The notes under the pieces: model-generated
Told to the model about the DNA's origin: nothing
Database searches by the model: none
Seen by the model: the letters and a program-made list of their open reading frames with translations, nothing else
Shown here: positions 3,001 to 49,381 of the stretch, in pieces
How positions within the stretch are numbered: position 1 is the stretch's first letter
Layout of the letters: each line of letters begins with the position of its first letter
Origin: Bacteroidia bacterium
GTDB lineage: Bacteria > Bacteroidota > Bacteroidia > 2-12-FULL-35-15
DNA: 64,000 nucleotides
NCBI GenBank assembly: GCA_030654175.1
Contig: JAURXZ010000019.1
Span: 62,001-126,000, forward strand
Direction: 5' to 3'
Made by a program: the position numbers and the translations under genes

Positions 3001-6000
3001 AAACGGGAATTACCGGAGCCGTGCCGGGTTCAGGTTCAACAATAGCCCAAACTTTAGCAGTGGCAGGAACAACTTCAGGTACCGCAGTTTATACAATTAG
3101 TTCTATAGGTGGAGGTTGTACCGGTAATACAATTACTGTTACCATCACTGTTAATACAATGGATAGTTCATCATTCGCGTATGCAACACCATCGTTTTGC
3201 CAATCAGGAATTGATCCTGTAGCTATTGTATCAGGCTTGCCTGGCGGGATCTTCTCTTCCTCCACAGGATTGGTTTTATTGGATACCTTAACTGGTTTAA
3301 TTGATTTAAGTGCAAGTCCGGTAGGATTACATACTGTAAAATACACAACAAGTGGGCTTTGTTCTGATACAAGTATCACTTATGTAGCAATTACAGCCGC
3401 ACCGGGGTCAGGATTTATTTATCAGGATTCTTCATACTGTCAAAATGGAAATAATCCTTCTCCGATTTTTGATTCACTTGCTATTGCTGGTGTGTTTTCT
3501 GCCACTCCTGTAGGTTTAGTGTTTGCAGATTCATCAACCGGTGAAATCGACCTGTCAGCAAGTGCAGTGGGGACCTATGTGATTACTAATTATCTCGCTC
3601 CAAGTGGAGGATGCGGTGCGGATAGTTCAACAATAAATCTGACTATAGTTCCACTTATAGCTACTGCAACTCCATCGTCACAGGCTATTTGTTCAGGCAC
3701 AGCCACATCTATTGCTTTAACAAGTTCGTTGCCAAACACAACGTATATCTGGACAGTAGTACAAACAGGTATTACAGGAGCATCGGCTGGTAGTGATTCT
3801 GTAATTGCCCAAACGTTAACACTCACAGGATCAGTTCCCGGAACGGCTGTTTATATAATAACACCATCAACAGGATTTTGCGTTGGCGATACCATAATGG
3901 TAACAATAACTGTTAATCCTGCCGCTGTAGGTATAGCAACACCAACATCTCAAACAATATGTTCAGATAGTGCAACATCTATTGTGTTAACAAGTAATAT
4001 ACCGGGTACTACTTTTTCATGGTTAGTGAACCAATCAGGAGTTTCGGGAGCAACAGCCGGAACGGATTCTGTTATTGCCCAAACGCTGAGCACTACCGGG
4101 ACTAATGCAGGTACTGCTGTTTATACAGTAACACCTTATTCAATTGGATGTTCAGGAAGCCCGATAAATGTTACTGTTACTGTAAATCCTTCTGATGATG
4201 CATCTTTTACATATACTTCAGCTACTTATTGCCAGTCCGGTACTAACCCAACACCTTCAATTACAGGTTTACCAGGCGGAACATTTACATCAACTCCTGC
4301 CGGTTTAACAATTAATCCTGCAACAGGTGTAATAGACCTTGTTTCAAGCTCAATTGGTGTATACATTCTTACTTATACAACAAATGGAACTGCTTGTCCG
4401 AATTCAAGTTCTATTACAATGACCATTGGTAATACCAGTCCTTCAGCGAATTTTAGCTACCCGGGCTCTCCATTCTGTCAGAATGGAACTAACCCTTTAC
4501 CAGTATATGGTGCGGGAGCAAGTGCCGGTATATTTACTTCAAGTCCTTCAGGTTTGGTATTTATTCATGTTAATACCGGTGAAATTGATCTGGCAGCTAG
4601 TAATCCGGGTACTTATACTGTTACAAATTCTATTCCTGCAAGTGGTAATTGTTTAGCTGCAGTTGCAACAAGTTCTGTAACTATTAGCCAGGCTGATGAC
4701 GCATCTTTTATATATACTTCTGCCACTTATTGTCGTTCCGGAGTTGACCCTATTCCTTCAATTACAGGATTACCGGGTGGTACTTTTTCAGCAACTCCTG
4801 CAGGCTTAAGCATTAATGCATCAACCGGAATAATTGATTTAGATTCATGTTCCTTAGGAGTATACACGCTTACTTATTCAACTAATGGTCCTTGTCCGGA
4901 TTCAAGTGCCATAACTATGGTAATTACAGACACAACACCTTCTACAAACTTTAATTATTCAGGTTCTTCATTCTGTCAAAATGGAACTGACCCATTCCCT
5001 GTATACGGTCCCGGTGCAAGTGCAGGAATTTTTTCCGCTTCACCTTCAGGTTTATCATTCGTGCATCTTAATACCGGTCAGATCGATTTAATGTCAAGTA
5101 CACCTGGTACTTATACTGTTACTAATACATTCCCTGTCAGTGGATTATGTCTTCCTTCAAGTTCAACAACTACGGTTGTTATAACTTCTGCGGACGATGC
5201 ATCGTTTGTTTATACTTCTTCAACCTATTGTCAGTCGGGCACTAATCCTACGCCTTCCATCACAGGGGTGTCAGGTGGTACTTTTACATCAACCCCTCCG
5301 GGTTTAGTTCTTGATTCAATTACAGGTTCTATTAATTTGTCAACCAGCTCTTTGGGAACGTACACTCTTTCCTATACAACAAATAGTGCTTGTCAAAATA
5401 CAAGTTCAATAACGATGACAATAACTGACACTACCCCTTCAGTGAGTTTTAGTTATCCTGCTTCTCCTTTCTGCCAAAATGGATACAATCCTTCTCCGAC
5501 TTTTGGTCCGGGTGCAAGTGCTGGTATATTTTCATCTACTCCTGCAGGATTAGCTTTTGTAAACCTCAACACCGGTGAAATAAACCTGACTATAAGTTTA
5601 CCCGGAGTGTATACTGTCACCAATACTATTCCGGCAAGTGGCAATTGTCTTGCTGCAAGCACCACAAGTTTAGTTACTATTACTACTTCTGATGACGCAT
5701 CCTTTACCTATACTTCATCAACTTATTGTAATTCAGGTTCTGACCCAACACCGGCAATTACAGGTTTGGCTGGAGGTACTTTCTCATCAACTCCGGTTGG
5801 TTTATCAATTGATCCATCAACAGGTACTATTGTTTTGGCAACAAGTGCATTGGGAGTTTATAATCTTTGTTATTCAACAAATGGAACTTGTCCATATACC
5901 GAATGCATAACGATGACAATTACGGATACCACACCAACTTCGAATTTTAGTTATACAGGTTCTCCTTTCTGTCAAAATGATAATAATCCTTTCCCAACTT

Positions 6001-7711: not shown

Positions 7712-10700
7712 ATGAGTATAAATAATTACCCTATAAAGTTTGTGTTAAAAGCAACGAAGAGCATACTGCTGTATATGTTTTTTGGGTTTATTTTTTTGTC
7801 TCCTAATGTAGGAAATTCACAAACGGTATCTACAACTGTTTATTGGTCATCGGGATGGTGTACCCTTTGTGGTACACAATATTCTTGTATTCCTCCTTAT
7901 TCAGGTAGCGGAAACTGGAACAATGGTATACGGAATTTTAGCGATCCAATACCTGCCGGAAATGTGATCACTCAGACTTGCGTAACTATTTATCAGGCAA
8001 ATTGCGGCTATTCCAGCATGTGTGCAACAATAAATAATCAAAATATTGGGTGCGGCTATCCTCCGGGAGATTGTTGGTGTGGTAATTGTTGGCCGATGAC
8101 ATTATGCGTGAATGGTGCATTACCCGGTTACAGTTATGGTGGAACTAATACTTTAAGGCTTAATCCAAACGGTCTTACTTGTGTTGCTTATGCAACTATT
8201 ACTTTTACCTATGCACCTGTATGTACTTCGTCAGGAGCTCCTTCATCTATTACAGCAACACCAAACCCTACATGTGGTGGCTCTACCACATTAACAAGAA
8301 ATGGAGGTTCACTCGGAACCGGAGCGGCCTGGTATTGGTATGCTGGAAGTTGCGGTGGAACATATTTGGGAAGTGGAAATTCTATTAACGTTACCCCGGG
8401 GTCAACAACCACTTATTTTGTAAGAGCGCAGGGAACTTGTAATACAACAGGGTGTGCTTCAGTTACAGTTACTGTTAATAGTCAATCTTCCGCTCCTTCA
8501 TCTGCTTCAGCAAGTCCTAATCCACTTTGTGGTGGATCTTCCACTTTAACTGTAAATGGGGGAGGACTGGGCACAGGTGCTAACTGGTATTGGTATTCGG
8601 GTAGCTGCGGAGGAAGTCTGGTCGGAACAGGGTCTTCCATAAGTGTATCACCGGGATCTACCACAACCTACTTTGTTAGAGCTCAGGGAACCTGCAATAC
8701 TACGGCATGTGTTTCAGTTACGCTTACCGTTAACAGTCCATCTACAGCTCCTTCTTCTGCTTCAGCAAGTCCAAATCCAACTTGTGGTGGAGCAACAACA
8801 TTAACTCTAAGTGGCGGTTCGCTCGGAACAGGAGCTTCATGGAAATGGTATTCCGGAAGTTGCGGTGGAAGTCTTGTAGGGACGGGAACTTCTATCAGTG
8901 TATCACCAGGTTCAAATACTACTTATTTCGTGAGGGCAGAAGGTACTTGTAATGTTACTGCATGTGCCTCTATTGCTGTTACAGTTAACACACCATCCGT
9001 TGCACCTGTAGGAGTGACTGCAAGTGTTAATCCAACCTGTGGTGGAGCAACAACATTAACAAGAGTAGGAGGGTCATTGGGAACAGGTGCTACTTGGAAC
9101 TGGTTTTCCGGAAGCTGTGGTGGAACTGCTGTAGGATCTGGAAATTCGATCACAGTTTCACCCTCATCAAGTACTACTTATTTTGTGAGAGCTCAAGGTG
9201 CTTGTAATAATACCGCTTGTGCAAGCATTGCTGTTACCGTAAATACTAACCCGGTAGCAACAGCTACTCCAACAAGTCAAAATCTATGCGCTGGAAATGT
9301 TTCTTCTATAGGATTAACAAGCAGTGTTCCCGGTACCACTTTTAATTGGACCGTTGTTCAATCCGGAGTAAGTGGCGGAGCTGCCAGTTCAGGCTCAACT
9401 ATTGCTCAAACATTGATTACAACTGGGCCTGTTGCAGGGACAGCTGTTTATACCATCACTCCATCAGCAGCAGGTTGTACTGGTAATCCTATTTCAGTTA
9501 CCATCAATGTAAAGCCCAACCCTATTGTTACGGCAACCCCTTCTTCTCAGGTTCTTTGTTCAGGAAATCCAACTTCAATAGCGTTAACAAGTAATGTGGC
9601 AGGAACCACTTTTGCCTGGACAGTAACCCAAAGTGGTGCTACAGGTGCTTCTGCTAGCAGTGGCGCTTCAATTGCTCAGACATTATCAGCAACAGGTTCA
9701 ACAGTAGGAACCGTAACTTATACAATTACCCCTACCGCGTCCGGTTGTTCGGGCACACCCATTTCTGTTACTATTTCAGTGAAACCAATTCCCGTTGTGA
9801 TTGCCACACCAACTTCACAAACCTTCTGTTCTGGCGGTGTTGCGAATATAGCCTTGTCGAGTTCTGTTGTGGGAACAACTTATGCCTGGACTGTTGTTCA
9901 AACAGGTGTATCAGGTGCATCTCCCGGCAGTGGTTCCACAATTCTACAAACATTAAATGCTACAGGAGTTGTTGCAGGTACCGCAGTTTATACAATTACA
10001 CCAACTGCAAATGGTTGTGCGGGCACACCGTTAAATGTAACGATTACCGTTAACCCAATGCCTTTAGTTACTGCAACTCCTGCAGCCCAGACTATTTGTT
10101 CAGGAATTTCAACAGGAATTTCATTATCAAGTAATGTGGCTGGTACCACATTTGCATGGACAGTGTTTCAAAATAATGTTACAGGGGCAACAGCCGGTAA
10201 TGGTTCTTCTATCGCTCAAGTATTAACGGCAACTGGAACAACGCCCGGATCTGTGGTTTATACAATTACTCCTACTGTCGGAAGTTGTGTAGGCTCTCCA
10301 ATTACAGTTACAATAACTGTAAACCCTAGACCTGTGGCAACAGCAACACCTGCAACACAAACATTCTGTTCAGGAGGTACCACATTTATTGCATTATCCA
10401 GTAATATGGGTGCTACCACTTATGCATGGACTGTAGTTCAAACAGGGGTGTCTGGAGCATCACCCGGAAGTGGAGCTACCATTGTTCAAACATTGATCAA
10501 TACAGGAGTGGTAGCAGGAACAGCAGTTTATTCTGTTACTCCTACTGTTAATGGTTGTGCAGGAACCCCAATTACTGTTACCATTACTGTAAATCCAGTA
10601 CCAATTGTTATCGCTACACCAGCGTCACAGATTCTCTGTTCTGGTGACGTTACAGGAATTAATTTGACCAGTAATGTTGGCGGAACAACTTTTTCCTGGA

Positions 10701-13700
10701 CTGTGACCCAAACCAACGTAAGCGGTGCTTCAGCCGGTAGTGGTCCTCTGATTGCTCAAACATTGACCGCTACAGGTGCAAATTCAGGAACTGTTGTGTA
10801 TACAGTAACTCAAACAGCGGGAGCCTGTGTTGGTTCTCCTATTACAATTAACGTTTCAGTAAATAAAAAACCGGTTGCAACAGCGAGCCCTGTTTCAAAA
10901 ACTATTTGTTCCGGAATTACAAGTACCATCACATTATCAAGTTCTATTCCGGGTACTACTTATTCGTGGACAATTTCTCAGAGTGGAGCATCAGGAGCCG
11001 TTGCCGGAAGCGGTTCCGTTATTGCGCAAGTTTTAACAGCAACGGGTACAACTGCCGGTACCGTTACGTATACAATTACGCCAAATAATAATGGTTGTAT
11101 CGGTAATGCAATTACTTCAACAGTTACTGTAAACCCAAGACCGGTTGTAACGGCAACACCTACCTCTCAGACATTCTGTTCGGGAGGGATAAGCGGAATA
11201 GCTTTAACATCTAATGTTGCCGGAACTACCTTTGCATGGACAGTTGTCCAGACAGATGTATCAGGAGCATCCCCAGGAACAGGTGCCAATATTATTCAAA
11301 CATTAACTTCGACAGGGAATGTAACAGGTACGGCTGTTTATACTATTACTCCAACAGCAAATGGATGTGCAGGAACTCCAATAACAGTTACAGTAACCGT
11401 AACTCCAATACCTGTTGCAACTGCAACGCCCCCTGCTCAGACAATTTGTTCAGGAGCATCAAATTCAATCGGGCTAACGAGTAATGTTGCAGGAACAACG
11501 TTTGCATGGACAGTAGCTCAAACCAACGTTTCCGGTGCTACAGCGGGAAGTGGTGCCACTATTTCTCAAGCATTGACTGCAACAGCAACTACTGCCGGAA
11601 CTGCTGTTTATTCAGTTATTCCAACAGCTTCTGGTTGTCCGGGCACTCCAATTTTAGTAACAGTGACTGTAAACCCTCAGCCTTTAGCAATAGCATGTCC
11701 TTCAGATGTTACTATTTGTTCAGGTGATGCAACTTCAATAGCATTAACCAGTGATGTTACGGGAACAACCTTTGCCTGGACAATGGTTCAAAGCTTAGCA
11801 ACAGGTGCTTCTGCAGGAAGTGGTTCTACAATAGCCCAGACATTGACCGCCACAAGTACAAGCCCCGGCACCGTAACTTATACGGTTACTCCAAGCGCTA
11901 CAGGTTGTTCCGGAACGCCAATTGTAGTAAATGTTACAGTAAATCCAAAACCAGTTGTAACAGCTACCCCGGCAGCACAAACTATTTGTTCGGGAAACTT
12001 AACCTTTATTGCTTTGTCAAGTAATGTTGTAGGAACAACCTATTCATGGACAGTTACCCAAACCAATTTAACCGGGGCCACGGCTAGTAGCGGAGCAGCG
12101 GTGATCAATCAAAGTTTAACATTAACGGGGTCTGTTGCAGGATCTGCCGTATATACGATCACTCCAACTGCGGATGGATGTTCGGGAATTCCAATTACTG
12201 TTACCATTACAGTGAACGTTAATGATAATGCCGCCTTTACTTATCCATCATCAACATATTGTAAACCCGGAGTTAATCCAACACCTACAATTACAGGTTT
12301 GCCCGGAGGCTCCTTTTCATCGGTTCCGGCCGGATTATCAATTAATGCTATCACAGGAACAGTCAATTTAGGAGGAAGTGCAGTGGGTACCTATACTGTT
12401 AGCTATACAACTAGTGGTCCTTGCCCTGTTACGAGTTCTGTTAATTTTACGGTTTCTTTATTATTTGCAGCGAATTTCAGCTATGCAGGTTCTCCTTATT
12501 GTCAATATGCTACTAATCCTAGTCCTACTTTAGGGGTTGGTGCAACTGCCGGTACATTTACAGCTGTTCCTGCCGGATTGGTTTTTGTAAATGTGAATAC
12601 AGGACAAGTTAATTTAACATTAAGTACGCCTGGCACATATACAGTTACAAATACTATTCCTGCGAGTGGTGCTTGTCTGGCAACCAGTGCAAATAGTGCT
12701 ATTACTATTAATAATTCTCCAACCGCAACCGCAACCCCTTCTGTTCAAACAATATGTTCAGGTGGCAGCACCTCCATCGCTTTAACAAGTTCAATGGGGG
12801 CTACTACTTATTCCTGGACAGTTGTTCAGGCCGGTGCTTCCGGTGCATCTGCCGGAGCGGGTGCTACAATTGCTCAAACATTAACAGCAGACGGATCAAA
12901 AGCCGGAACAGCTATCTATACAATTATTCCAAATTCCGGTGGCTGTCCAGGTCTTCCAATAAAAGTCATAATTACGGTTAACCCAATACCTGTTGCCGCT
13001 AGCTGTCCTGCCTCACAAACAATTTGTTCGGGAGAAACAACTTCAGTAGCATTAACAGCTGATGCCGCGGGCACTGCTTTTTCATGGACCGTAAGTCAAA
13101 CAGGAGTTACGGGTGCATCTGCGGCAAGCGGTACTACAATTGCTCAAGTCCTGACAGCTACCGGTACTGTTGCGGGTTCTGTAACGTATACCATTACTCC
13201 AATTGTTGGAGGTTGTTCCGGCACTCCAATTTTAGTTTTCATAACTGTAAAACCGAGCCCTACTACAACCGCTACACCTACTTCTCAAACAATTTGTTCG
13301 GGAACTTCAAATTCAATAGCTTTAACAAGTAATCTTCCCGCAACTACTTTTGTTTGGACGGTAACACAAACTGGAACTTCCGGGGCTTCTGTTGGCGGTG
13401 GTACCACCATAGCACAATTGCTGACAGCAACCGGGGTAATTCCGGGTACTGCAACGTATTCAATTGTGGGAACTTCTGGTGCCTGTCCGGGGTTACCAAC
13501 TGTAGTGCCGGTTACTGTAAATCCAAAACCTATTATTACTGCCACACCTGCTTCACAAACTATTTGTTCAGGTCTTGCAACTTCGATTGCGTTAACAAGT
13601 GATGTTGCAGGTACAACTTTTTCGTGGACAGTTTCTCAAAGTGGTGTATCCGGAGCTTCAGCAAATAGTGGTTCATCCATTGCTCAAACCCTTACTACAA

Positions 13701-39384: not shown

Positions 39385-40338
39385 ATGAAAGTTATTGATT
39401 GCATCAAACAAGCAAAATCAACCTTGTTTTCCATTGAAATTCTGCCACCCTTAAAAGGTAAAAGCATACAATCTATTTTTGATGGGATAGACCCTTTGAT
39501 GGAATTTAAACCTTCATTTGTGGATGTTACGTATCACCGTGAAGAATATCTTTATAAAAAACGTGATGGTGGATACCTCGAAAAAGTAAGTATCCGTAAG
39601 CGTCCGGGAACAGTTGGTATTTGTGCGGCCATTATTAATAAATACCATGTGGATGCTATTCCACATATCATCTGTGGTGGTTTCAGCAAAGAAGAAACTG
39701 AAAATGCTTTAATTGACCTTCATTTTTTGGGAATTGATAATGTGCTTGCCTTACGTGGAGATTCCATTAAAAGTGAGCCTGAATTTGTTCCTGAGCCGAA
39801 TGGACACGCCTACGCGATAGACCTGGTAAAACAGGTACATCAAATGAATAAGGGACGATATATTGAAGATGATCTGGCGGATGTTGCACCAACCAATTTT
39901 TGTATTGGTATTGCAGGTTATCCTGAAAAACATTTTGAAGCTCCTAATATGATCTCGGATATCAGATATTTGAAAGCCAAGATAGATGCGGGTGCTGAGT
40001 ATATTGTTACTCAGATGTTCTTTGATAACTCAAAATATTTTGAGTTTGTAGAGAAGTGCAGAGAAATGGATATTAATGTGCCTATTATTCCGGGATTAAA
40101 AATTTTAACAACAAAAAAGCAAGCTACACTTTTACCTAAAATATTTAAAATAGATGTTCCTCAACCTTTGTTGGAGCAAATTGAAAAATGTAAAACGGAT
40201 GCTGCTGTAAAAGAAGTAGGTATTGAATGGGCGATCAATCAATCGAAAGAATTGATAAAAGGTAAAGCGCCTTGTTTGCATTTTTATACAATGGGGGCTT
40301 CTGAAACTACACGTAGAGTTGCTTCTGCGGTGTTTTAA
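39385..40338 (+). CDS. metF: Methylenetetrahydrofolate reductase
   Basis: This FAD-dependent cytoplasmic enzyme reduces 5,10-methylene-THF to 5-methyl-THF for methionine synthesis. The length of 317 aa is usual for bacterial MetF. Seen motifs: FSIEILPP near residue 17 (contains the catalytic Glu equivalent to E. coli Glu28), FVDVTYHREE, ALRGDS (FAD-binding Asp loop), CIGIAGYPEKH, YIVTQMFFDN (folate-binding Gln) and IPIIPGLKI. Together they cover the whole TIM-barrel family pattern. It has its own likely promoter and a strong terminator and appears monocistronic. It borders the cassette cluster downstream and may be the conserved chromosomal anchor on that side. Confidence 0.96.
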   Translation: MKVIDCIKQAKSTLFSIEILPPLKGKSIQSIFDGIDPLMEFKPSFVDVTYHREEYLYKKRDGGYLEKVSIRKRPGTVGICAAIINKYHVDAIPHIICGGFSKEETENALIDLHFLGIDNVLALRGDSIKSEPEFVPEPNGHAYAIDLVKQVHQMNKGRYIEDDLADVAPTNFCIGIAGYPEKHFEAPNMISDIRYLKAKIDAGAEYIVTQMFFDNSKYFEFVEKCREMDINVPIIPGLKILTTKKQATLLPKIFKIDVPQPLLEQIEKCKTDAAVKEVGIEWAINQSKELIKGKAPCLHFYTMGASETTRRVASAVF

Positions 40339-40358
40339 ATTGTGACCTGCTGATAATT

Positions 40359-40394
40359 AAAATGCCCTCCTGCTGTATTGCAGGAGGGCATTTT
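40359..40394 (+). terminator. Intrinsic terminator of metF
   Basis: There is a perfect 15-bp stem: 40359-40373 (AAAATGCCCTCCTGC) pairs with 40380-40394, with loop TGTATT. The right arm ends in TTTT and is followed by GGTTTTTG. It lies 20 nt after the metF stop. Confidence 0.92.
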
Positions 40395-40499
40395 GGTTTT
40401 TGCACTTATTCTGAAATTGGGTTATAGGAATAGCTTATATTTGATAAGGCAATAAAAGTGATAATAAATAATTGCAATCATTTACAATTGATTGAAATT

Positions 40500-40531
40500 G
40501 CTAAACATGCGTTTAGCGAATTGTTATGCCC
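40500..40531 (+). other. First cassette boundary with short hairpin (truncated attC-like or attI-like)
   Basis: The GTTATGCCC at 40523-40531 opens the first cassette-like unit and is the reverse complement of the GGGCATAAC that ends it (41230-41238). Just before it is a 7-bp perfect hairpin, GCTAAAC (40500-40506) and GTTTAGC (40511-40517), loop ATGC. The order TTTAGC-N5-GTT matches the right end of the attC-like repeat at 44161-44350 (TTTAGC-TCATC-GTT). The long central part of the other repeats is missing. It could be a shortened attC, a relic of an attI site, or chance. Confidence 0.45.
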
Positions 40532-40567
40532 AATGCAAGTAGACAGGAACTTCAATAAGACATCATT

Positions 40568-40819
40568 ATGAATTTTGCAAATTTTATTCTTATTTCAGGA
40601 TTTATTTTTTACTTTATTTATACTCTGATATTTGCTATTCACTTTAATAAAGAGGACTATTTTTATACTGAAAAACAAAAATTGCGACATAATATAATGA
40701 TTTGGTTAATCCCGTTTCTATGGATTATTATTTTAAAAACAATTCGAAAACCACCGAAAAAACAACTTAAAGACAATAATGCACCTTATAATGACTGGAC
40801 TGATGGTGCTGCTTCATAA
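40568..40819 (+). CDS. Small membrane protein of unknown function (cassette 1)
   Basis: This 83-aa protein is not recognised. There are two predicted transmembrane segments, about residues 4-24 (FANFILISGFIFYFIYTLIF) and 43-59 (IMIWLIPFLWIIIL), joined by a charged loop, then a basic tail (KTIRKPPKKQLK) and an acidic end. The start ATG is 45 nt inside the cassette boundary, as usual for cassette genes. It has no signal peptidase site. A second ORF follows 112 nt downstream in the same unit. Codon use is AT-rich, like the other units of this cluster. Confidence 0.6.
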   Translation: MNFANFILISGFIFYFIYTLIFAIHFNKEDYFYTEKQKLRHNIMIWLIPFLWIIILKTIRKPPKKQLKDNNAPYNDWTDGAAS

Positions 40820-40931
40820 TGGTTTGCAGTTATTGTATGCCGACCTGTGTGTAAAGACCTGTGTTTGCTAAGACTGACATGCAAGGCTGTAGGAAAATAA
40901 AATACATCTATACGCTCAATTAAACAATAAA

Positions 40932-41171
40932 ATGAAGGACGAACGGACTGAATTAATAACAAAAAAAGAAGGTTATGAAGCAATGCTGTATGCAATAAAA
41001 GCATACTGGGAAAATAGTGGCTCTAAAGACTTGACTGACATATTAAGCGGTGGAGAATATTGGCAGGGAACTGAGGAGCCAGCAGACTCTGCATTTTGGG
41101 AATATTGGACTGAGGCAATTGAAAAAGTAAAGAAAGATGGTCCAATGTTTAAAGTTTTAAGACCGGAATAA
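40932..41171 (+). CDS. Small soluble protein of unknown function (cassette 1)
   Basis: This 79-aa protein is not recognised. It is acidic and rich in aromatic residues (AYWENSG, GGEYWQGTEEPADSAFWEYWTEAI), predicted mainly helical, with no signal peptide or membrane segment. The composition (EGYEAMLYAIKAYWE ... LSGGEYW) recalls small immunity-like or regulatory proteins, but I claim no function. It is the second ORF of the first cassette-like unit and ends 58 nt before the attC-like repeat. Confidence 0.6.
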   Translation: MKDERTELITKKEGYEAMLYAIKAYWENSGSKDLTDILSGGEYWQGTEEPADSAFWEYWTEAIEKVKKDGPMFKVLRPE

Positions 41172-41229
41172 AGAATTGCTGTGTAGCACGACTGTTGGGT
41201 ATGTGTTACTCGAAAGAAAAATTTGCACT

Positions 41230-41405
41230 GGGCATAACAGCACCTAAAGAAAAATGCGGAGTTCGTACAAGTTGCAAGCGCATTTTTTCAGCGGCAGAAA
41301 GTTTTGGCGCTTGCCATTCACTTCGGAATTATTAATTAAGTTTGTGCGGTAAGACAGTGAAGTGCTATTAATTCCGCACTTTCTTTAGCTGCCAAACGTT
41401 ATAGG
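41230..41405 (+). repeat. attC-like structured repeat, copy 1
   Basis: The outer arms pair: GCACCTAAAGAAAAATGCGGA on the left matches the reverse complement of the right arm (TCCGCACTTTCTTTAGCTGC, ending about 41392) with a few mismatches and bulges. The inner hairpin is GCAAGCGC (41274-41281) with GCGCTTGC (41307-41314). It begins GGGCATAAC and ends AACGTTATAGG (GTT at 41398). Copies 2 and 3 are clearly similar in sequence. In integron terms: R'' = GGGCATAAC, R' = GTTATAGG. Confidence 0.7.
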
Positions 41406-42105
41406 TAACCAGCCGGTGTAACTCGACAAGGCAATATTTTGGACAATTTTAAAACAGAAATTTAAGTGGCTGACAGAATAATTTTTATATCATCTCTTTT
41501 AGGATTTATTTTACTCTTTGCCATCACCACTTTCATTTACCTTTTGCTAAAAGGACATAGAAAATGGAAATCCAAAGTTAAGAACAGCCCCGTAGACAGA
41601 ATGTTTCAAACGCAGCAAAACTTTATCGACCATTTTGTTAAAAAGGGTTACTCATTGGAAAGCGCGAAATTTATTTACCAAAAAACTCAGAAATTCTTAA
41701 GAGCCGAAGGCATGATTCTATTGCCGGAGGACGACCTTATTGAATTATACGAAAGACAACAAGACGAATGGTTTTATATCATTAATAAATGGTTTACTGA
41801 AATTGATAAACCAAAACCTGACGAAAAAAAGCTTAACGACTTATTGTCAAAACACAAAGCAGTTAACTTCGAATTTTTAATAGAACTATTTGACAACTTG
41901 GTTTGATAAACTTTGTACGGCTGGCAACCTATAACACAGGCTTACACAAAATGCGGAGATCGTGCAAGTTGCAAATGCATTTTCTTCGGTGCGCGAAGCG
42001 CGGAATATTTCGCATTTGCCATTTCCTTTTGTACTTTTAATAAAGTTTTTCGGTTAAATCAGTTTAGTGCTTTTAATATTCCGCACTTCGTGTAGCCTGA
42101 AAACG
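41399..42105 (+). mobile_element. Integron-like gene cassette 2
   Basis: This 707-bp unit opens with GTTATAGGTAACCAGCCG (41398-41415) and its coding part ends with the reverse complement CGGCTGGCAACCTATAAC (41918-41935), 16 of 18 positions matching. It contains one ORF and the attC-like copy 2. Confidence 0.62.
41466..41906 (+). CDS. Membrane-anchored protein of unknown function (cassette 2)
   Basis: This 146-aa protein is not recognised. It starts at GTG 41466, the only start that includes the N-terminal membrane segment (about residues 4-28, IIFISSLLGFILLFAITTFIYLLL). A basic stop-transfer stretch (KGHRKWKSKVK) and a soluble helical domain follow, with FIDHFVKKGYSLESAKFIYQ and YERQQDEWFYIINKWF. 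It is predicted to be anchored in the inner membrane with the soluble domain inside the cell. It fills almost the whole unit between the boundary (41398) and the attC-like repeat (41928), a tight fit typical of single-gene cassettes. Confidence 0.65.
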   Translation: MADRIIFISSLLGFILLFAITTFIYLLLKGHRKWKSKVKNSPVDRMFQTQQNFIDHFVKKGYSLESAKFIYQKTQKFLRAEGMILLPEDDLIELYERQQDEWFYIINKWFTEIDKPKPDEKKLNDLLSKHKAVNFEFLIELFDNLV

Positions 42106-42111
42106 TTAGGC
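41928..42111 (+). repeat. attC-like structured repeat, copy 2
   Basis: It begins CCTATAAC and ends AACGTTAGGC (GTT at 42105). The outer arms are CAGGCTTACACAAAATGCGG and the reverse complement of CCGCACTTCGTGTAGCCTG; one unpaired T and one mismatch resemble extrahelical bases of attC sites. The inner hairpin is GCAAATGC (41971-41978) with GCATTTGC (42012-42019). GTTAGGC is an exact match to the classical core GTTRRRY. Confidence 0.72.
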
Positions 42112-43439
42112 ACAAGGCAATTCTAAAAAAAGAACAAAAAATAATTTTCCCAATACATAATAACGGATGAGAGCATTAATACTTACAGTTTTTTCATCTT
42201 TAATTTTCAACAAAGTTAGCTCACAATCCGCTCAAGTAGATACCTCGAACTATTCTCATTTAATAGGAGGAACTTCAGATGACTACATAAAAAAAGGGTC
42301 AACGAAATACTTAATTGAAGACTTTAAAGGAGCAATTGCAGATTTCACAAAAGCTATTGAATTAAATCCTAATGATAGTTATGCTTTTTACGACCGAGCA
42401 ATTTCAGAGGCAAAATTAAATGATTTCGATAATGCAATTGTAGATTATAATAAATCAATTGAATTAAATCCCAATTATCCAGAGGTATATAATAATAGAG
42501 GGGTTTCTAAAAACAAATTAAAAGATTACAAAGGTGCAATTGCCGATTATTTTAAAGCTATTGAAATAAATCCTAACTACGGTGACGCTTTTTATAATAA
42601 AGGAATAAGTAATTATGAATTAAAAAATTACAATGACGCAATTTCAGATTTTACAAAAGCAATCGAATTACTTCCCAATTATAGTATAACTTATTATAAT
42701 AGAGGTCTCGTCAAATATAAATTGCGAAAATATAAAGGAGCGATTAAAGATTATAATAAGGCTATCAATTTAAATCCAAAAAATGATTGGGCATTCAACA
42801 ATCGAGGAATCTGCAAATATAAGTTGCGAAAATTTAAAGGAGCGCTTAAAGACCATAATAGCGCAATTGAATTAAATCCTGAAAACGTGGAAGCCCTTAT
42901 ATGCAGAGGAAACGCCAAGAAAGTTTTGAAAGATTACGTAGGCGCGAAAAAAGATTATGATAAGGTCATTAATTTAAATCCAAATTATTGGGAGGCTTAT
43001 TATGGCAATGGAGATATTCAATTTGATTTAAAAAATTATGATGTAGCCATTAATTATTATAATAAGGTAATTGAATTAAATCCAAGTGATAAGGGTGCTT
43101 ATTATGATAGAGGATTATCAAAGTTTAAATTTGGTGACAAAACCGGAGCATGTTCTGATTGGAGAAAAGCTTTGGAGAAAGGTAGCAAAAACGCAGGCTC
43201 TGAAATACTTAAAAATTGCAGATAAAAATTTTAATTATCCAAAACGTCAGGAATAAAAAACAGCGCCTAACAGCATCTAAGCAAGATGCGGAAGATTGTG
43301 CAAGTTGCAAATGCTTTTTCAAAGGTTCGCTCCGCGCAACATTTTTTGCATTTGCCATTAAGTTCAGTACATTTAATAAAGTTTTTCGGTTAAGAGAGTT
43401 TTGTGCAAGTAAATCCGCACTTCTTTTAGCTGCCAAACG
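42106..43439 (+). mobile_element. Integron-like gene cassette 3
   Basis: This 1334-bp unit opens with GTTAGGC (42105-42111) and is closed by the exact reverse complement GCCTAAC (43265-43271). Both are perfect matches to the integron core sites GTTRRRY and RYYYAAC. It carries the TPR gene and attC-like copy 3. Confidence 0.65.
42167..43225 (+). CDS. Secreted tetratricopeptide (TPR) repeat protein (cassette 3)
   Basis: This 352-aa protein has a probable signal peptide (MRALILTVFSSLIFNKVSSQ) and then nine consecutive 34-aa TPR units of the form AxYNRGxxKxxLKxYKGAIxDYxKAIELNPN. The last unit is degenerate and ends with a Cys-containing tail (GACSDWRKAL, ILKNC). TPR arrays form right-handed superhelices that bind peptides or proteins; the partner is unknown. 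It is predicted periplasmic or exported. Lying between matching boundaries 42105 and 43271, it is the longest cargo of the cluster. A nine-TPR secreted protein is unusually large for cassette cargo. Confidence 0.88.
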   Translation: MRALILTVFSSLIFNKVSSQSAQVDTSNYSHLIGGTSDDYIKKGSTKYLIEDFKGAIADFTKAIELNPNDSYAFYDRAISEAKLNDFDNAIVDYNKSIELNPNYPEVYNNRGVSKNKLKDYKGAIADYFKAIEINPNYGDAFYNKGISNYELKNYNDAISDFTKAIELLPNYSITYYNRGLVKYKLRKYKGAIKDYNKAINLNPKNDWAFNNRGICKYKLRKFKGALKDHNSAIELNPENVEALICRGNAKKVLKDYVGAKKDYDKVINLNPNYWEAYYGNGDIQFDLKNYDVAINYYNKVIELNPSDKGAYYDRGLSKFKFGDKTGACSDWRKALEKGSKNAGSEILKNCR

Positions 43440-43448
43440 TTGTGTGCC
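43265..43448 (+). repeat. attC-like structured repeat, copy 3
   Basis: It begins GCCTAAC and ends AACGTTGTGTGCC (GTT at 43439). The outer arms are GCATCTAAGCAAGATGCGGA and the reverse complement of TCCGCACTTCTTTTAGCTGC. The inner hairpin is GCAAATGC (43307-43314) with GCATTTGC (43347-43354). It shares with copy 2 a long stretch right of the inner hairpin (TTTAATAAAGTTTTTCGGTT). Confidence 0.72.
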
Positions 43449-43605
43449 ATTGTAAAAAAAAGAAAAAAAAGAAAAACGAACGGACAAGAAACTTTCCGTG
43501 CGACAATTATAATTTTTGCATACCTTATTCCACAAATTTTAAATTATGAAAAAATTAATCTACTTTTTGGAATTATTATTCACTAGAAAAATAAACTCAA
43601 ACAAA

Positions 43606-44028
43606 ATGAAAAATTTCACCTTCTTTATTTCCATTTTAACTCTTTTTGTTTCTTGTAATTCTGGCAACGGTAATAGTTCTGATTCACCCCAGGAAAATGG
43701 GTTGACAGCTGGGGAAATCGAACGGCCACAACCTATGAGCGTTTTAGAGGCTGGTGAAATATGTATGAGTGGTTTTGACGGGGATTCAATCAATATGCAT
43801 GGCGTAATTAAAAACACATCCCCAGCAGATTCATACAAGGACGTAGTTGTTAAAGTAACTTATTACAGCGATGCAAAAAAAAAATTGGGTAATAAGGAAT
43901 ATACAATTCCCGAAGTTTTCCCACCTCATTCAGATGTTCGGGTTGAATTAAAGGTTGAAAACTGTAAAGATGTAAATACAATTGGCTGGGAAGTTATATA
44001 TGCGAGAGTGGAAAAGCAAATTAAATGA
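43606..44028 (+). CDS. Putative lipoprotein of unknown function (cassette 4)
   Basis: The start chosen is ATG 43606, giving a lipoprotein signal MKNFTFFISILTLFVSC with the lipobox ending at Cys17. An upstream in-frame ATG at 43546 would add 20 residues that spoil the signal. The mature protein (about 124 aa) begins with a Ser/Asn/Gly-rich linker. It then has a compact domain (GFDGDSINMHGVIKNTSP, DVVVKVTYYSDAKKKLG, FPPHSDVRVELKVE) that reads like the FxxL/DUF3426-type beta-sandwich folds seen in small lipoproteins; that resemblance is weak. Predicted membrane-anchored. A 14-bp tandem repeat follows directly downstream inside the same unit. Confidence 0.7.
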   Translation: MKNFTFFISILTLFVSCNSGNGNSSDSPQENGLTAGEIERPQPMSVLEAGEICMSGFDGDSINMHGVIKNTSPADSYKDVVVKVTYYSDAKKKLGNKEYTIPEVFPPHSDVRVELKVENCKDVNTIGWEVIYARVEKQIK

Positions 44029-44056
44029 CTTTTATCTGAAGGAATATCCCAGGTGT

Positions 44057-44140
44057 AACGAACTGGGTACAACGAACTTGGTACAACGAAATGGGTACAA
44101 CGAAATGGATGTAACGAAATGGGTACAACGAAATGGGTAC
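44057..44140 (+). repeat. 14-bp tandem repeat, six units
   Basis: Six consecutive 14-bp units with consensus AACGAAATGGGTAC (three exact copies, three with one to three changes) lie 28 nt after the lipoprotein stop and 20 nt before attC-like copy 4. The repeat can be read as an ORF on either strand, but those translations are only the repeat. Confidence 0.9.
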
Positions 44141-44160
44141 GCAACGACCAAAGAAACAAC

Positions 44161-44350
44161 GGCACACAACATCACCTAAGTTATATGGCCGTTAACAGCC
44201 AGTTTCATCATTTGAGTTCGCAATGAAAATAGGTCGTGGCAAAAACATTTCACAGCGGAAGAAAATTATTTTTTATTTGTTTTTGCCACTTTAACTTTTA
44301 TGATTTTGTTTACGAAGAAGGCCAAAACATTTAGCTCATCGTTATTTGAC
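44161..44350 (+). repeat. attC-like structured repeat, copy 4 (divergent)
   Basis: It has the same architecture as copies 1-3 but little sequence identity. It begins GGCACACAAC. The left outer arm ATCACCTAAGTTATATGGCC pairs imperfectly with the right arm GGCCAAAACATTTAGCTCAT. The inner hairpin is GTGGCAAAAACA with its perfect complement TGTTTTTGCCAC, in 44230-44290. It ends ATCGTTATTTGAC (GTT at 44341). It appears to be the last site of the cluster: no reverse complement of GTTATTTGAC occurs after the next gene. Confidence 0.55.
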
Positions 44351-44449
44351 TGTTATGTTCCATTGTGCGAAAAAAAAATGAGGAACAGAAACGGAACTTT
44401 CCATTTGAGCCGTTCAACTTTCACATTCGTTTAATATATTTTATTATTT

Positions 44450-45691
44450 ATGAAAAACAGATTCAACAAAAAAGCGTGTTTAATATTTTTCTTTTCTCTA
44501 TTTATAATTAATATTTTTCAAATTTCTGCTCAAAATAAAATGAGTTTAGAAACGGGGTTCTATTATATTATTCCAAATAATGAAAAGAATGCGTTTGTTG
44601 TTCGTACCTATGATTCACTTTCTGTTAATAAAATTCCATTTTTAACAGTAAAAGAATTTCAAAAAATCAATCTTCTTTTAAACCCTTATCGTTATTATAA
44701 TTTAATCATTCTAAATGATAAAGGAAAAAAAATATTAAAAAGAGCAACTTTAAAGTATTTGAATAAAAACATAGCATTTATTATTAATGGGGAGCTTATT
44801 TGTACTATTTCCGTTCGCGGTATTGCTTCAGAAGGTAAAATTAATTTTTCTGATCAAAATCACTCTTCGAAACAAAAAGAGATTCAAAATTATAAACAGA
44901 TAAGAAGAGAAATGAATTTAGATACTGCATACTTTAATGTTAAACAGTATGCTTTATTAGATATAGACTTTGATAAAATTAGTACATATGAATCTCATAA
45001 GCGCGGCCTTGCATGGAGGGAATCACATGATGATATAGTCACAGTTTGCACTGACAAGGAGTTGATTTTAGAATTAAAGAAACAAGTATTTTTTATAGAT
45101 AATGAAACCTGCAATGATAAAAATGCGACTAAAGCGATACATATATTCAATAATAATATAATAATTGGAAATTATTATTATTGTGACTCAAATCAATCTA
45201 ATCTTTTAAATTTTAAAGACAACTTCCATTTAACAAAGCTTTATAATGAAACTTTTAACTCAAAGAAAGAATTATTAGAAAAGTATAACAAATTAAAAAT
45301 AGAAGGCGCATGTTTAGGCATTGAGACAATACCTCCTTCTCAATATTTAATAGGTGATGGCTGCTTGAGAATTGAGCTTTTAAATAAAGAAAATCCAAAG
45401 GATACAACTAATTACATTAAAAATTTCACAAAAGAATTAAAAAACTTATTGAAAATAGATGAATCTGATATTAGTGTTTCTGAATTTCTATATACTAATA
45501 ATAAAACCTCTACAAAAATAATAGCTAACATCAGATGTACAAACGAATACGGAAGAAGTTTCAATAAAAAAGTATTTCAGAATGTTATAATATTTAATTC
45601 AGTTGGTAGGATTGATTATATAGAAGATCAAATAAATTCAGATGACTTCAACAGAGATCATAAAGTGTATAAAATATTTTATAGGAAATAA
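44450..45691 (+). CDS. Secreted protein of unknown function, weak SecD-like segment
   Basis: This 413-aa protein starts at ATG 44450 with a signal peptide (KKACLIFFFSLFIINIFQISAQ). I do not recognise the whole protein. Residues about 97-135 (RATLKYLNKNIAFIINGEL, then ICTISVRGIASEGKINFSD) resemble the periplasmic P1 head motif of SecD (K-x-IAIVLDGKVxSAPxIxxxIxxGxxxIxG), which also occurs in small secreted SecD-like proteins. The rest is Lys/Asn-rich. The first bases after attC copy 4 lead into this gene without a matching closing boundary, so it is either the chromosomal flank or a cassette that lost its end. It shares a bidirectional terminator with the next, convergent gene. Confidence 0.7.
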   Translation: MKNRFNKKACLIFFFSLFIINIFQISAQNKMSLETGFYYIIPNNEKNAFVVRTYDSLSVNKIPFLTVKEFQKINLLLNPYRYYNLIILNDKGKKILKRATLKYLNKNIAFIINGELICTISVRGIASEGKINFSDQNHSSKQKEIQNYKQIRREMNLDTAYFNVKQYALLDIDFDKISTYESHKRGLAWRESHDDIVTVCTDKELILELKKQVFFIDNETCNDKNATKAIHIFNNNIIIGNYYYCDSNQSNLLNFKDNFHLTKLYNETFNSKKELLEKYNKLKIEGACLGIETIPPSQYLIGDGCLRIELLNKENPKDTTNYIKNFTKELKNLLKIDESDISVSEFLYTNNKTSTKIIANIRCTNEYGRSFNKKVFQNVIIFNSVGRIDYIEDQINSDDFNRDHKVYKIFYRK

Positions 45692-45788
45692 AATAGGATT
45701 AAATTAGGGTGCTATTGTAACTACAGAATTGGTTAACTCGAACTGAGGAATTGCCAGGCACACTTGTTAAAAAACATTGATCAATAAT

Positions 45789-45840: not shown

Positions 45841-47388
45841 TTAGTTGGAAATTACAATTTTTTTTGTGATGCGCTCATTCGTTTTTGAATCAAGCACTTC
45901 TACAATATACAATCCGGGAGGAATGCTGCTCACATCTAAAGCAGTATTATCGGTGAATGTTTCGGCCTTTAAAATTGTTTGTCCTGTGATGTTTAAGATA
46001 CGCACTTTGTATTCAGATGTTTTTGAAAGATAAATACTTAATTTATTGGATGCAGGATTTGGATAAACAAATACTTTAGTAAAAGCATTCGCTGAAACCT
46101 TATTAATATTCACAGACAAGAGTGTATCATTTGCCAATAATTCTTCAATATCAATCAATTCATCTCCCGCCTGATAATCGAGCCACATGTATTCGTCAAA
46201 AAGCATTTCATCCCCGGTGCTTGTTCCTGCAACAACTAAAGCAGGGGGACTGTTTGGATTGTTGGGATTATTAGCTGTATTGTCATAAACATGTTTGGAA
46301 AATAATTTATATCCTGCAGGAATTTTTATAAGGTTGGTATATGTGTAATACCCTTGCCACATAAAATCCCAGTTGTTGATACGCACCAATGGAATGGTAT
46401 CTGTGCCAGCATAGGCATAATTCACGATGCTCTTGCAAACCATGTGTGAATGGGGGAATGTAGCAAATATGGAAAGCGGAGCCTGTAATGTTCCGTTATC
46501 CGGGTATTTATCGGTGAACGTAGTAACAGTGTTTGGAAGCATGTATAAGCTCCAGTTTTCCAGCAATTCTTTATTATAAATCGGGCGTATTCCTGTTTCA
46601 CCTTCCGGATAAAAATACATTCGTATTTGTGTACTGTCCAACTGACCTGAACTGCCTGCAGGATAATGGATCTGAAGAATGATATTAGAACCTGCTTTAA
46701 TACGAATGCCTGCTTTTAAAGGTGCCTGTCCGGGGAATACAGTAGGAGCAGCTCCTGGGGCATAACCTCCAATACCAAAATCTCCGGGAAGGCTGAAGCA
46801 TTGTCCTGTTAGATCACTTGCAGCAGTGCCGGTAGTATCAACAAAAACAAGCGCGTGATGGACAATAGGTGCATTACCTGGTATAACTTCATAGGCACGT
46901 AGCACTCTGTCTTGCGTCAGACCGCTGGGAATCGAAAAACAAACATAACTGTCAGTAGAACCTGCATTACTTGGAAATACGGGTGTTCTAAGAACGATGG
47001 TAGGGGTTCCGCTAAGCTGATATTGAGAAGTATATACAGGAGCAGCAGGAGCAAGAGTGGTATCGCCTGGCAGCGCACCGCTGTTTACCCAGCTGATGAT
47101 GGCACTTTTATCAGCTTGAGTGATGGCTCTTTCATGTGAAAAACGTGAGTAGGATGTATCCGGAGACCAGGGAGGCATGTGGCCTTCCTGAACGTGATAA
47201 AGGATAGAAGCTGCAAAAGTTGATGTTTGAGTGTAGGTCATTAATGGCATGGGTGCTCCGCCTCCAACATGGTGACAGGAGGTGCAGTTGTTGTAAAATA
47301 CCTGTGCAACGTCTTTGTAATCAAGTTGGGCTTTCGCTGAAGGGATAAGGATAATTGTGGTAAGGAATAAAATGTAAATTTTTTTCAT
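45841..47388 (-). CDS. Cytochrome c / PHM-like copper monooxygenase with T9SS type A tail (copy 1)
   Basis: This 515-aa exported protein has a signal peptide (MKKIYILFLTTIILIPSAKA), then a c-type heme motif CTSCH at residues 35-39 with GGGAPMP. A region follows that resembles the copper type II ascorbate-dependent monooxygenase (PHM) fold. All six copper-ligand positions of PHM have counterparts: HH in VHHALVF and H in LQIHYP (CuA-like), HxH in TFPHSHMV and Met in DEMLFDEY (CuB-like). The C-terminus is a T9SS type A sorting domain (VYPNPASNKLSIYLSKTSEY ... GLYIVEV, KKIVISN). Oxidative chemistry on the cell surface is inferred; the substrate is unknown. It lies in tandem with a close paralogue upstream (47825-49381). 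Confidence 0.85.
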   Translation of the reverse strand: MKKIYILFLTTIILIPSAKAQLDYKDVAQVFYNNCTSCHHVGGGAPMPLMTYTQTSTFAASILYHVQEGHMPPWSPDTSYSRFSHERAITQADKSAIISWVNSGALPGDTTLAPAAPVYTSQYQLSGTPTIVLRTPVFPSNAGSTDSYVCFSIPSGLTQDRVLRAYEVIPGNAPIVHHALVFVDTTGTAASDLTGQCFSLPGDFGIGGYAPGAAPTVFPGQAPLKAGIRIKAGSNIILQIHYPAGSSGQLDSTQIRMYFYPEGETGIRPIYNKELLENWSLYMLPNTVTTFTDKYPDNGTLQAPLSIFATFPHSHMVCKSIVNYAYAGTDTIPLVRINNWDFMWQGYYTYTNLIKIPAGYKLFSKHVYDNTANNPNNPNSPPALVVAGTSTGDEMLFDEYMWLDYQAGDELIDIEELLANDTLLSVNINKVSANAFTKVFVYPNPASNKLSIYLSKTSEYKVRILNITGQTILKAETFTDNTALDVSSIPPGLYIVEVLDSKTNERITKKIVISN

Positions 47389-47824: not shown

Positions 47825-49381
47825 TTAGTCTGTGATCACAATCTTTTTTGTGATGCGATCGTTCGTTTTTGAATCTATCACTTCTACAATATATAAACCT
47901 GCCGGGATACTGCTCACATCCATAGCTGTATTATCGCTGAACGTTTCTGAATTCAGAATACTTTGGCCTGTAATATTTAAAATGCGAACCTTATATTCAG
48001 ATTTTTTTGAAAGATAAATGCTAAGTTTATCCGTTGCAGGATTTGGATAAATAAAAGCATTAATACCACGTGCGGATGCTATTTCATTTACACTTAAAGG
48101 GTTAAGAAGAGGGTCGTTAGCCAATAATTCTTCCACATCAATTAATTCATCACCGGTCTGATATTCCATCCATAGGTAAGCATCAAAAAGCATTTCATTT
48201 GAAGTGCTTGTTCCTGCAATAACTAAAGCAGGAGGGCTGTTTGGATTATGAGGATTGTTGGTTGTATTGTCGTAAACATGTTTGGAAAACAATTTGTATC
48301 CTGCAGGAATTTTCATGAGTTTTGGGTATGTATAATATCCCTGCCACATGAAATCCCATTCATTTATACGCACAAGAGGAATGGTATCGGTACCGGAATA
48401 GGCATAATTTACGATACTTGTGCATACTTTATGTGAATGTGGGAATGTGGCAAACATTGAAATCGGAGCAGGAATTGTTCCACTATTAGGATATACATCA
48501 GTAAATGTAGTAACAGTGTTAGCAGGCATATACAAACTCCAGTTTTGTAATGGAGCTGAATTATAAACGGGACGTATGCCTGTTTCGTTAAGCGGGTAAA
48601 AATACATACGGATCTTTGTGCTGTCTATCATTCCCAAAGTGTTTGGAGGGTAGTGCAACTGAAGTATAATGTTGGAGCCTCCGGGTATGAGTATACCTGC
48701 CTTAAGTGGAAATTCTCCGGGAAAAATAATAGGAGATGCACCGGGAGCATAACCGCCAATACCGATCTCTCCGGGAGCATTGAAGCATTGTCCTGATAGA
48801 TCATCTGCTATTGTTCCGGTAGTATCAACGTTAACGATCACGTGGTGCACAATTTCGGGATTGCCCGGGATAATTTCGTAAGCCCGCAGTATCCTGTCTT
48901 CTGCAAGACCTGTAGGAATGGAAAAACAAACGTAACTGTCAGTTGAACCTGCATTGCTTGCAAAGGTGGGCATCTGTAAGGTGATGGTTGGAGTTCCAAG
49001 AAGTTTGTATTGTGATGTATAAATTGGAGCAGCAGGTGCAAGAGTAGTATCACCAGCGAGTGCACCACTGTTTACCCAACTTAGTATGTCATTTTTTTCA
49101 GCTTGTGTAATGGTGCGCTCATCCATAAAACGGGAGTAGGTGGTATCGGGTGACCAGGGCGGCATATGGCCTTCCTGCACGTGATACAGAATAGAAGCCG
49201 CAAACGTGGATGTTTGACTGAAGTTCATTAAAGGCATTGGAGCCCCTCCACCAGTATGATGACAAGAGGTACAATTGTTAAAGAATATCTGAGCAACATC
49301 CTTGTATACAAGCTGTGCTTTGGCTGAATAACTAAATACAATTACTGTCAGCATCAAAAAAACAATGTAAAGTTTTTTCAT
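47825..49381 (-). CDS. Cytochrome c / PHM-like copper monooxygenase with T9SS type A tail (copy 2)
   Basis: This 518-aa protein is a paralogue of the protein at 45841-47388 over its whole length. The signal peptide is MKKLYIVFLMLTVIVFSYSAKA. The heme motif CTSCH is at residues 37-41, followed by GGGAPMP. PHM-like copper ligands are HH in VHHVIVNV, H in LQLHYP, HxH in TFPHSHKV and Met in NEMLFDAY. The type A sorting tail is IYPNPATDKLSIYLSKKSEY ... KKIVITD. Both copies keep every predicted metal ligand, so both are probably active. The 436-nt gap between them argues for separate promoters. A surface redox enzyme is inferred; the substrate is unknown. Confidence 0.85.
   Translation of the reverse strand: MKKLYIVFLMLTVIVFSYSAKAQLVYKDVAQIFFNNCTSCHHTGGGAPMPLMNFSQTSTFAASILYHVQEGHMPPWSPDTTYSRFMDERTITQAEKNDILSWVNSGALAGDTTLAPAAPIYTSQYKLLGTPTITLQMPTFASNAGSTDSYVCFSIPTGLAEDRILRAYEIIPGNPEIVHHVIVNVDTTGTIADDLSGQCFNAPGEIGIGGYAPGASPIIFPGEFPLKAGILIPGGSNIILQLHYPPNTLGMIDSTKIRMYFYPLNETGIRPVYNSAPLQNWSLYMPANTVTTFTDVYPNSGTIPAPISMFATFPHSHKVCTSIVNYAYSGTDTIPLVRINEWDFMWQGYYTYPKLMKIPAGYKLFSKHVYDNTTNNPHNPNSPPALVIAGTSTSNEMLFDAYLWMEYQTGDELIDVEELLANDPLLNPLSVNEIASARGINAFIYPNPATDKLSIYLSKKSEYKVRILNITGQSILNSETFSDNTAMDVSSIPAGLYIVEVIDSKTNDRITKKIVITD

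Follow-up and report, generated by a model that had tools for sequence, protein, structure and literature searches.

Described integrons, whether the mobile classes 1 to 3 or the sedentary chromosomal ones, share a common layout. A tyrosine recombinase (IntI) lies beside an attI site and a tandem series of cassettes in one direction, with GTT/AAC cores. Each cassette carries a hairpin-forming attC site, whose bottom strand is the more stable fold. The patch III region of the enzyme has been described as defining or essential (PMC9668308). IntegronFinder also recognizes clusters of attC sites lacking an integrase (CALIN), with at least two attC sites and no integrase nearby. For Bacteroidetes, IntegronFinder 2.0 reported one complete integron, in Salinibacter ruber M1 (PMC9024848). 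Here we analyse a gene-cassette array within a 64,000-nucleotide stretch of a 5.1-Mb Bacteroidia genome (contig C44:62001-126000; hereafter the window). Labels in C, G and L denote contigs, genomes and loci of this analysis. We read the window as holding an orphan array of a distinct Bacteroidota integron class, served in trans by a tyrosine recombinase that lacks patch III, and place the probability of this reading at about 0.88.

Integron-like working is supported by the anatomy of the array, by covariation between cassette ends and by observed cassette movement. Because the defining patch III was tested for and is missing, the system is not a member of the IntI integrons, and because it works like an integron without patch III, we treat it as a new integron class. 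Integrons are thought to be near-absent from Bacteroidota and to require patch III. A class that breaks this rule, with an integrase profile matching about half of the sampled Bacteroidia species, would shift where gene capture is sought. It would also alter the understanding of folded-DNA recombination.

Two published systems lie close to this one. The present enzymes probably fall in the 'Integron-like' subgroup of simple tyrosine recombinases (Smyshlyaev et al. 2021, PMC8138268); in the available part of that study, insertion-less members are not linked to attI/attC arrays, in contrast to the enzymes described here. Papers on tet(X3) and tet(X14) name the neighbouring gene xerD and report no integron (PMC7473080, PMC8635130, PMC12263697). 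Whether this 'xerD' mobilises tet(X) is a question asked in print (PMC7473080), and the class offers a concrete answer to it. The openly accessible literature, with subscription papers and preprints outside the search, held no description of such an integron class and no recognition of the tet(X)-adjacent 'xerD' as an integron integrase. The class appears undescribed, and current search criteria miss its type of enzyme.

Anatomy of the window array

The array lies between a methylenetetrahydrofolate reductase (MTHFR) gene (39385-40338) and a secreted cytochrome/monooxygenase-like gene (45841-47388, minus strand). Four tandem units occupy 40523-44170, and the closing arm of each complements its own GTT-led opening arm. 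Its features, with open reading frames (ORFs), are as follows.

40349-40403, plus strand: terminator-like hairpin on the MTHFR gene side; homologous copies stand 5' of the attI-like site at C6 and C5
40436-40443, plus strand: candidate cassette promoter (Pc) TATATTTG; fits the Bacteroidota -7 element TAnnTTTG, and homologous sites share the motif
40465-40522, plus strand: attI-like site; TTACAA repeats, with AAACATGCGTTTAGCGAATT directly 5' of the first GTT; copies at C6, C27, C21, C5 and in G008
40523-41238, plus strand: cassette unit 1; ORFs 40568-40819 and 40932-41171; arms GTTATGCCCAATGCA / TGCACTGGGCATAAC
41239-41397, plus strand: attC body of unit 1, type A, 159 nt
41398-41935, plus strand: cassette unit 2; ORF 41466-41906; arms GTTATAGGTAACCAG / CTGGCAACCTATAAC
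41936-42104, plus strand: attC body of unit 2, type A, 169 nt
42105-43271, plus strand: cassette unit 3; tetratricopeptide repeat (TPR) protein 42167-43225; arms pair over 7 bp only, outer arm degenerate
43272-43438, plus strand: attC body of unit 3, type A, 167 nt
43439-44170, plus strand: cassette unit 4; lipoprotein-like ORF 43546-44028; arms GTTGTGTGCCATTGT / ACAACGGCACACAAC
44171-44353, plus strand: attC body of unit 4, type B, 183 nt; short GTT-led remnant at its 3' end
44354-45740 (end approximate), plus strand: cassette unit 5; ORF 44450-45691; start arm GTTATGTTCCATTGT; no closing arm and no attC

The type A bodies of units 1-3 are homologous to one another. With four attC bodies, and with none of the genome's matches to the IntI model TIGR02249 located on contig C44, the window array is a CALIN as defined above. 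It differs from a plain CALIN in retaining an attI-like site and a promoter-like motif, and in that an integrase of another class is encoded in the same genome. An Rfam search returned no attC-like match. The 79-amino-acid unit 1 protein has homologues in other Bacteroidia, and these sit outside cassettes.

Cassette ends covary

The sequence-only reading had proposed an integron-type array without an adjoining integrase, made of four plus-strand units whose two ends pair exactly or nearly exactly. The array, the four units and the complementarity all stand; the exactness does not. In every window pair A faces C at position 11, and A often faces A at position 10. Its third pair, GTTAGGC/GCCTAAC, does match over 7 bp as proposed but is degenerate beyond, with the A/C at position 11 kept. 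Across Bacteroidota the same rule recurs. Arms are 15 nt long and cassette-specific with a nearly invariant A.C mismatch at position 11, and in the 77 units that follow the rule complementarity ends sharply at nucleotide 15.

Single pairs were not significant by themselves in a blind arm scan of the window, and the rule rests on two pooled tests. The first, a non-circular one, took GTT...AAC pairs from arrays of many genomes, requiring complementarity throughout positions 4-9 and 12-15 but not at positions 10, 11 and 16. The forward strand gave 65 pairs with A at the start and C at the end at position 11. Among the 28 pairs from reversed and complemented control sequence, none had A/C there. 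Position 16 matches in just 13 of the 65. The core site begins GTTR in all 65 although R was not required in the search, RRY is not kept, and the consensus is nearer GTTRNNNGYAA than GTTRRRY. The second test set unit limits solely by similarity of spacers to those of the window. Own arms then matched at 8.6 of 10 positions, against 4.6 when cross-paired, and none of 10,000 shuffles reached the observed sum. At least two low-scoring units in this set resemble two units with a missed spacer between them.

attC bodies are predicted to fold best on the bottom strand

Cassettes are separated by hairpin bodies of 38-260 nt. Their lengths are clustered rather than continuous (38-43, 96, 117-118 and 158-169 nt). 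Most open with AGC or ACC, and they end in AAC, ACC or GTTC right before the next GTT.

Thirty-five sites were folded with a DNA energy model in two forms. The circle form joins end arm, body and the cassette's own start arm; in the array form the own start arm is swapped for that of the next cassette. Circle forms averaged -34.6 kcal/mol on the bottom strand and -30.4 on the top, and the bottom strand was the more stable in 31 of 35, so the attC-like bottom-strand hairpins that had been anticipated are indeed predicted. The array form averaged -26.4 kcal/mol, with the circle form more stable in 33 of 35 sites. Arms alone fold better as bottom strand in 75 of 77 units, because the position 11 pair is a G.T wobble there and an A.C mismatch on the top strand.

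An integrase without patch III adjoins the arrays

A search for the type A body in 84,980 species genomes found 41 loci, mostly in Bacteroidota records; the few in other phyla look like chance. One of them, L143, has nine successive units, and at two loci recombinase remnants lie just 5' of the first cassette. An intact recombinase, in the same direction as the cassettes and with its stop 90-204 bp before the first one, was found at seven loci, with no control matches. Six are in the same genus as the window (G017 with 5 units, G003, G027 with at least 6, G022, G034 and G031) and one is in another family (G049).

When these array-linked integrases were aligned, all kept the tyrosine-recombinase core residues and all carried an N-terminal domain of about 95 amino acids. 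The IntI-defining patch III insertion (about 30 amino acids) is missing from every one; the canonical IntI at L117 has it. Those tested score below the IntI (TIGR02249) and XerA cut-offs. The integrase profile matches IntI4 (2a3v) in two pieces, which is consistent with the missing insertion. Searched against Pfam, the N-terminal domain gave sub-threshold matches only (HARP 0.045, DUF5710 0.0017). Plasmid integrases of Rufibacter and Pontibacter (L368 7659-9113, L371 7389-8843) seemingly hold two copies of it.

At most bacterial loci integrase and cassettes point the same way. Five IMG/VR contigs (L221, L222, L224, L229, L214) are unlike them: there the arrays face away from a short patch-III-less recombinase that has no N-terminal domain.

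The system thus differs from IntI integrons in its enzyme, which is without patch III, has the N-terminal domain and is usually oriented with the cassettes. Its attC bodies are mostly 96-169 nt. Its cassette-specific arms also differ in being 15 bp long and conserving A.C at position 11, a contrast drawn with one canonical cassette and the published 7-bp core.

The leader and further arrays in the same genome

Between integrase and first cassette lies a leader of 34-206 bp that ends at GTT and is a putative attI-like site. The window retains a leader of about 160 bp (40360-40522) 5' of unit 1, with a promoter-like TAnnTTTG-like element and the attI-like site. Whole or in its last part, this leader recurs at C6, C5, C27 and C21 of the same genome and in G008, and units or attC bodies follow the copies at C6, C27 and C21. 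The TAnnTTTG motif is found in leaders of many sites, and TATATTTG may act as the promoter Pc that drives first cassettes. Pattern matches to the attI motif in G027, G031 and G013 were discarded; their sequence is unrelated to the leader and no arrays adjoin them.

A search of the rest of the genome for copies of the repeat and for an IntI-type integrase had been proposed from the window alone. The copies are there: body searches and reading located arrays at C19:185-194k (units up to 4.3 kb), C6, C21, C27 and C32. The integrase is there too, but it belongs to the patch-III-less class and not to IntI. It is a 359-amino-acid recombinase (C32:159993-161072, minus strand) that adjoins an array back to back; the array begins at C32:161223, and its first GTT lies about 150 bp from the integrase start codon. 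The window array is thus an orphan with a matching enzyme elsewhere in the genome.

Cassettes move as whole units

In two related genomes, G011 and G025, the whole block is absent, and the MTHFR gene is followed by the 45841 gene within about 200-380 bp. The array is thus an insertion relative to these relatives.

The tigecycline-resistance gene tet(X) is carried as a cassette at three loci.

L372 (NZ_CP104735.1), 2967-4988: tet(X) cassette
L373, 1483-2690, minus strand: tet(X) cassette (genome G260)
L393, 157-1364: tet(X) cassette

The G260 cassette and that of the Empedobacter falsenii plasmid p1681-tetX are identical at 1207 of 1208 positions; their 116-nt attC bodies are fully identical as well, and their neighbours differ. 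Identity ends right in the next GTTA, and left of the opening GTT just the ends of the neighbouring attC sites are still partly similar. The arms, GTTATGTGCCATTTT and AAAACGGCACATAAC, are perfect in both copies and have A facing C at position 11, and in G260 the units flanking the cassette on both sides also follow the arm rule. In an Acinetobacter plasmid, homology to the cassette begins exactly at the same GTT. The 5' flank of that GTT holds a leader containing TATATTTG, together with an integrase of this class that is truncated; the closing arm is altered at positions 5-7. These comparisons show one cassette exchanged as a whole unit with breakpoints at G^TT, as first proposed, and the system appears to have carried tet(X). 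At L143 one cassette occurs twice consecutively with 100% identity (3696-5275), a recent whole-cassette duplication.

The Acinetobacter segment xerD/tpnF-tet(X3)-res-ISCR2 corresponds to this arrangement. Its 'xerD' is a truncated member of the present integrase class, and tet(X3) is the first cassette at its attI. It was published as an ISCR2 unit, not as an integron (PMC7473080, PMC8635130, PMC12263697).

Distribution in Bacteroidia

For a survey, a profile was built from twelve integrases, of which seven had been confirmed next to arrays. At E <= 1e-60 it has matches in 202 of the 395 Bacteroidia species and in 116 of 196 genera, a match alone being no proof of array linkage. Forty integrase loci were sampled across Bacteroidia families and their downstream sequence was checked. 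A rule-obeying unit begins 34-206 bp after the integrase stop in 18 of the 40, and units are present in 23 of the 30 having at least 2 kb downstream. Overall the sampled loci gave 63 units, versus 6 in two control versions of identical DNA. Since the positives include single-contig genomes (G379, G413, G340, G165), assembly error is not the cause. Among named isolates, the Rufibacter tibetensis plasmid NZ_CP012644.1 has five called units.

Many of the contigs at L328-L367 stop 0-1.4 kb 3' of the integrase. Assemblies therefore break at arrays, so that surveys will count too few of them.

Short units following the arm rule are also present in Polaribacter phages; in some of these units the gene runs in reverse.

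L291 (Polaribacter phage P12002L), 30952-31120, 39242-39518 and 40552-40764: phage units
L292 (Leef_1), 9184-10809, minus strand: phage unit

Proposed mechanism and alternatives

We propose that the patch-III-less recombinase encoded elsewhere in the genome acts on the window array in trans. In a cassette circle the attC would become exposed in single-stranded form. One long hairpin would then fold from end arm, body and start arm, and the recombinase site would be its 15-bp arm stem, which ends at the GTT cut site. The bottom strand would be favoured through the conserved position 11, with its G.T wobble there and A.C mismatch on top. The integrase would join this strand to attI at G^TT, and the newest cassette would land beside the promoter and hence be expressed. 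Within the array, the arms that meet at one site derive from different cassettes and pair poorly; therefore excision should be disfavoured relative to integration.

Several points weigh against this reading. The patch III region is stated to be necessary or essential for integron recombination in two papers (PMC9668308, PMC8138268). Metagenome-assembled genomes supply most of the evidence. Because the window array has no closing arm at its right end and degraded arms in its third cassette, it may itself be inert.

The strongest competitor, which we consider improbable, is that the window array is an ordinary CALIN that a canonical IntI of plasmid or other-host origin once mobilised, with the Bacteroidota recombinases as bystanders. 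IntI1 does recombine a Polaribacter phage attC, on the bottom strand only (PMC9892861), and that phage bears units of the present kind, possibly not at the same site. Canonical IntI, however, occurs in only 1 of 395 Bacteroidia genomes and in none of the 36 of the window's genus; a canonical IntI locus, G173, has no attC array within the 12 kb examined. The patch-III-less enzyme instead lies directly 5' of arrays again and again, and in one canonical cassette, inspected visually, the arms were 9 bp long and lacked A/C at position 11.

Very little probability goes to discrete Xer/pdif modules moved by host XerC/XerD, a reading that we reject. In the papers the recombinase next to tet(X) bears the annotation 'xerD' (PMC7473080, PMC8635130), and the integrase profile matches XerA/XerD structures too. 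But pdif sites are 28 bp in an 11-6-11 arrangement (PMC12263697), whereas here there are 38-260-nt hairpins, arms that differ per unit and a constant orientation. The arrays are also led by a dedicated extra recombinase, whose N-terminal extension is absent from the genome's XerC/XerD-like proteins.

Least probable of all, and likewise rejected, is that each unit is a transposon-like element in its own right, bounded by 15-bp terminal inverted repeats, with the bodies as a target or a separate repeat family: each unit does have inverted ends and the bodies are homologous between units, but the ends vary by unit yet remain complementary, the units run head to tail in one direction adjoining an integrase, and the body moves with the 3' end of its unit in the tet(X) cassette, which already contradicts it.

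Beyond the integron reading of the window, we lean slightly towards a broader proposal. A second, phylum-wide integron class without patch III would use the 15-bp wobble stem and the new N-terminal domain to recognise the site and choose its strand. Full pairing in the circle only would bias the system to capture, and tet(X) would have entered clinical bacteria as one of its cassettes.

Minor features of the cassettes and flanks

A leader, GAACGGACAA..CTTTCCGTTCGACAATTATAATTTTTGCA, recurs just 3' of the start arm in cassettes whose genes are unrelated, in the window at 43479-43520 and in L013 near 10425, 12768 and 14268. Degenerate short tandem repeats (GGTACAACGAAATG; GACCTGTGTGTAATACGACCG) lie at many cassette 3' ends (window 44052-44150 and 40843-40895; L013 11340-11700 and 14040-14150). 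To the right of the array stand two tandem paralogous secreted cytochrome c/copper-monooxygenase-like genes, 45841-47388 and 47825-49381.

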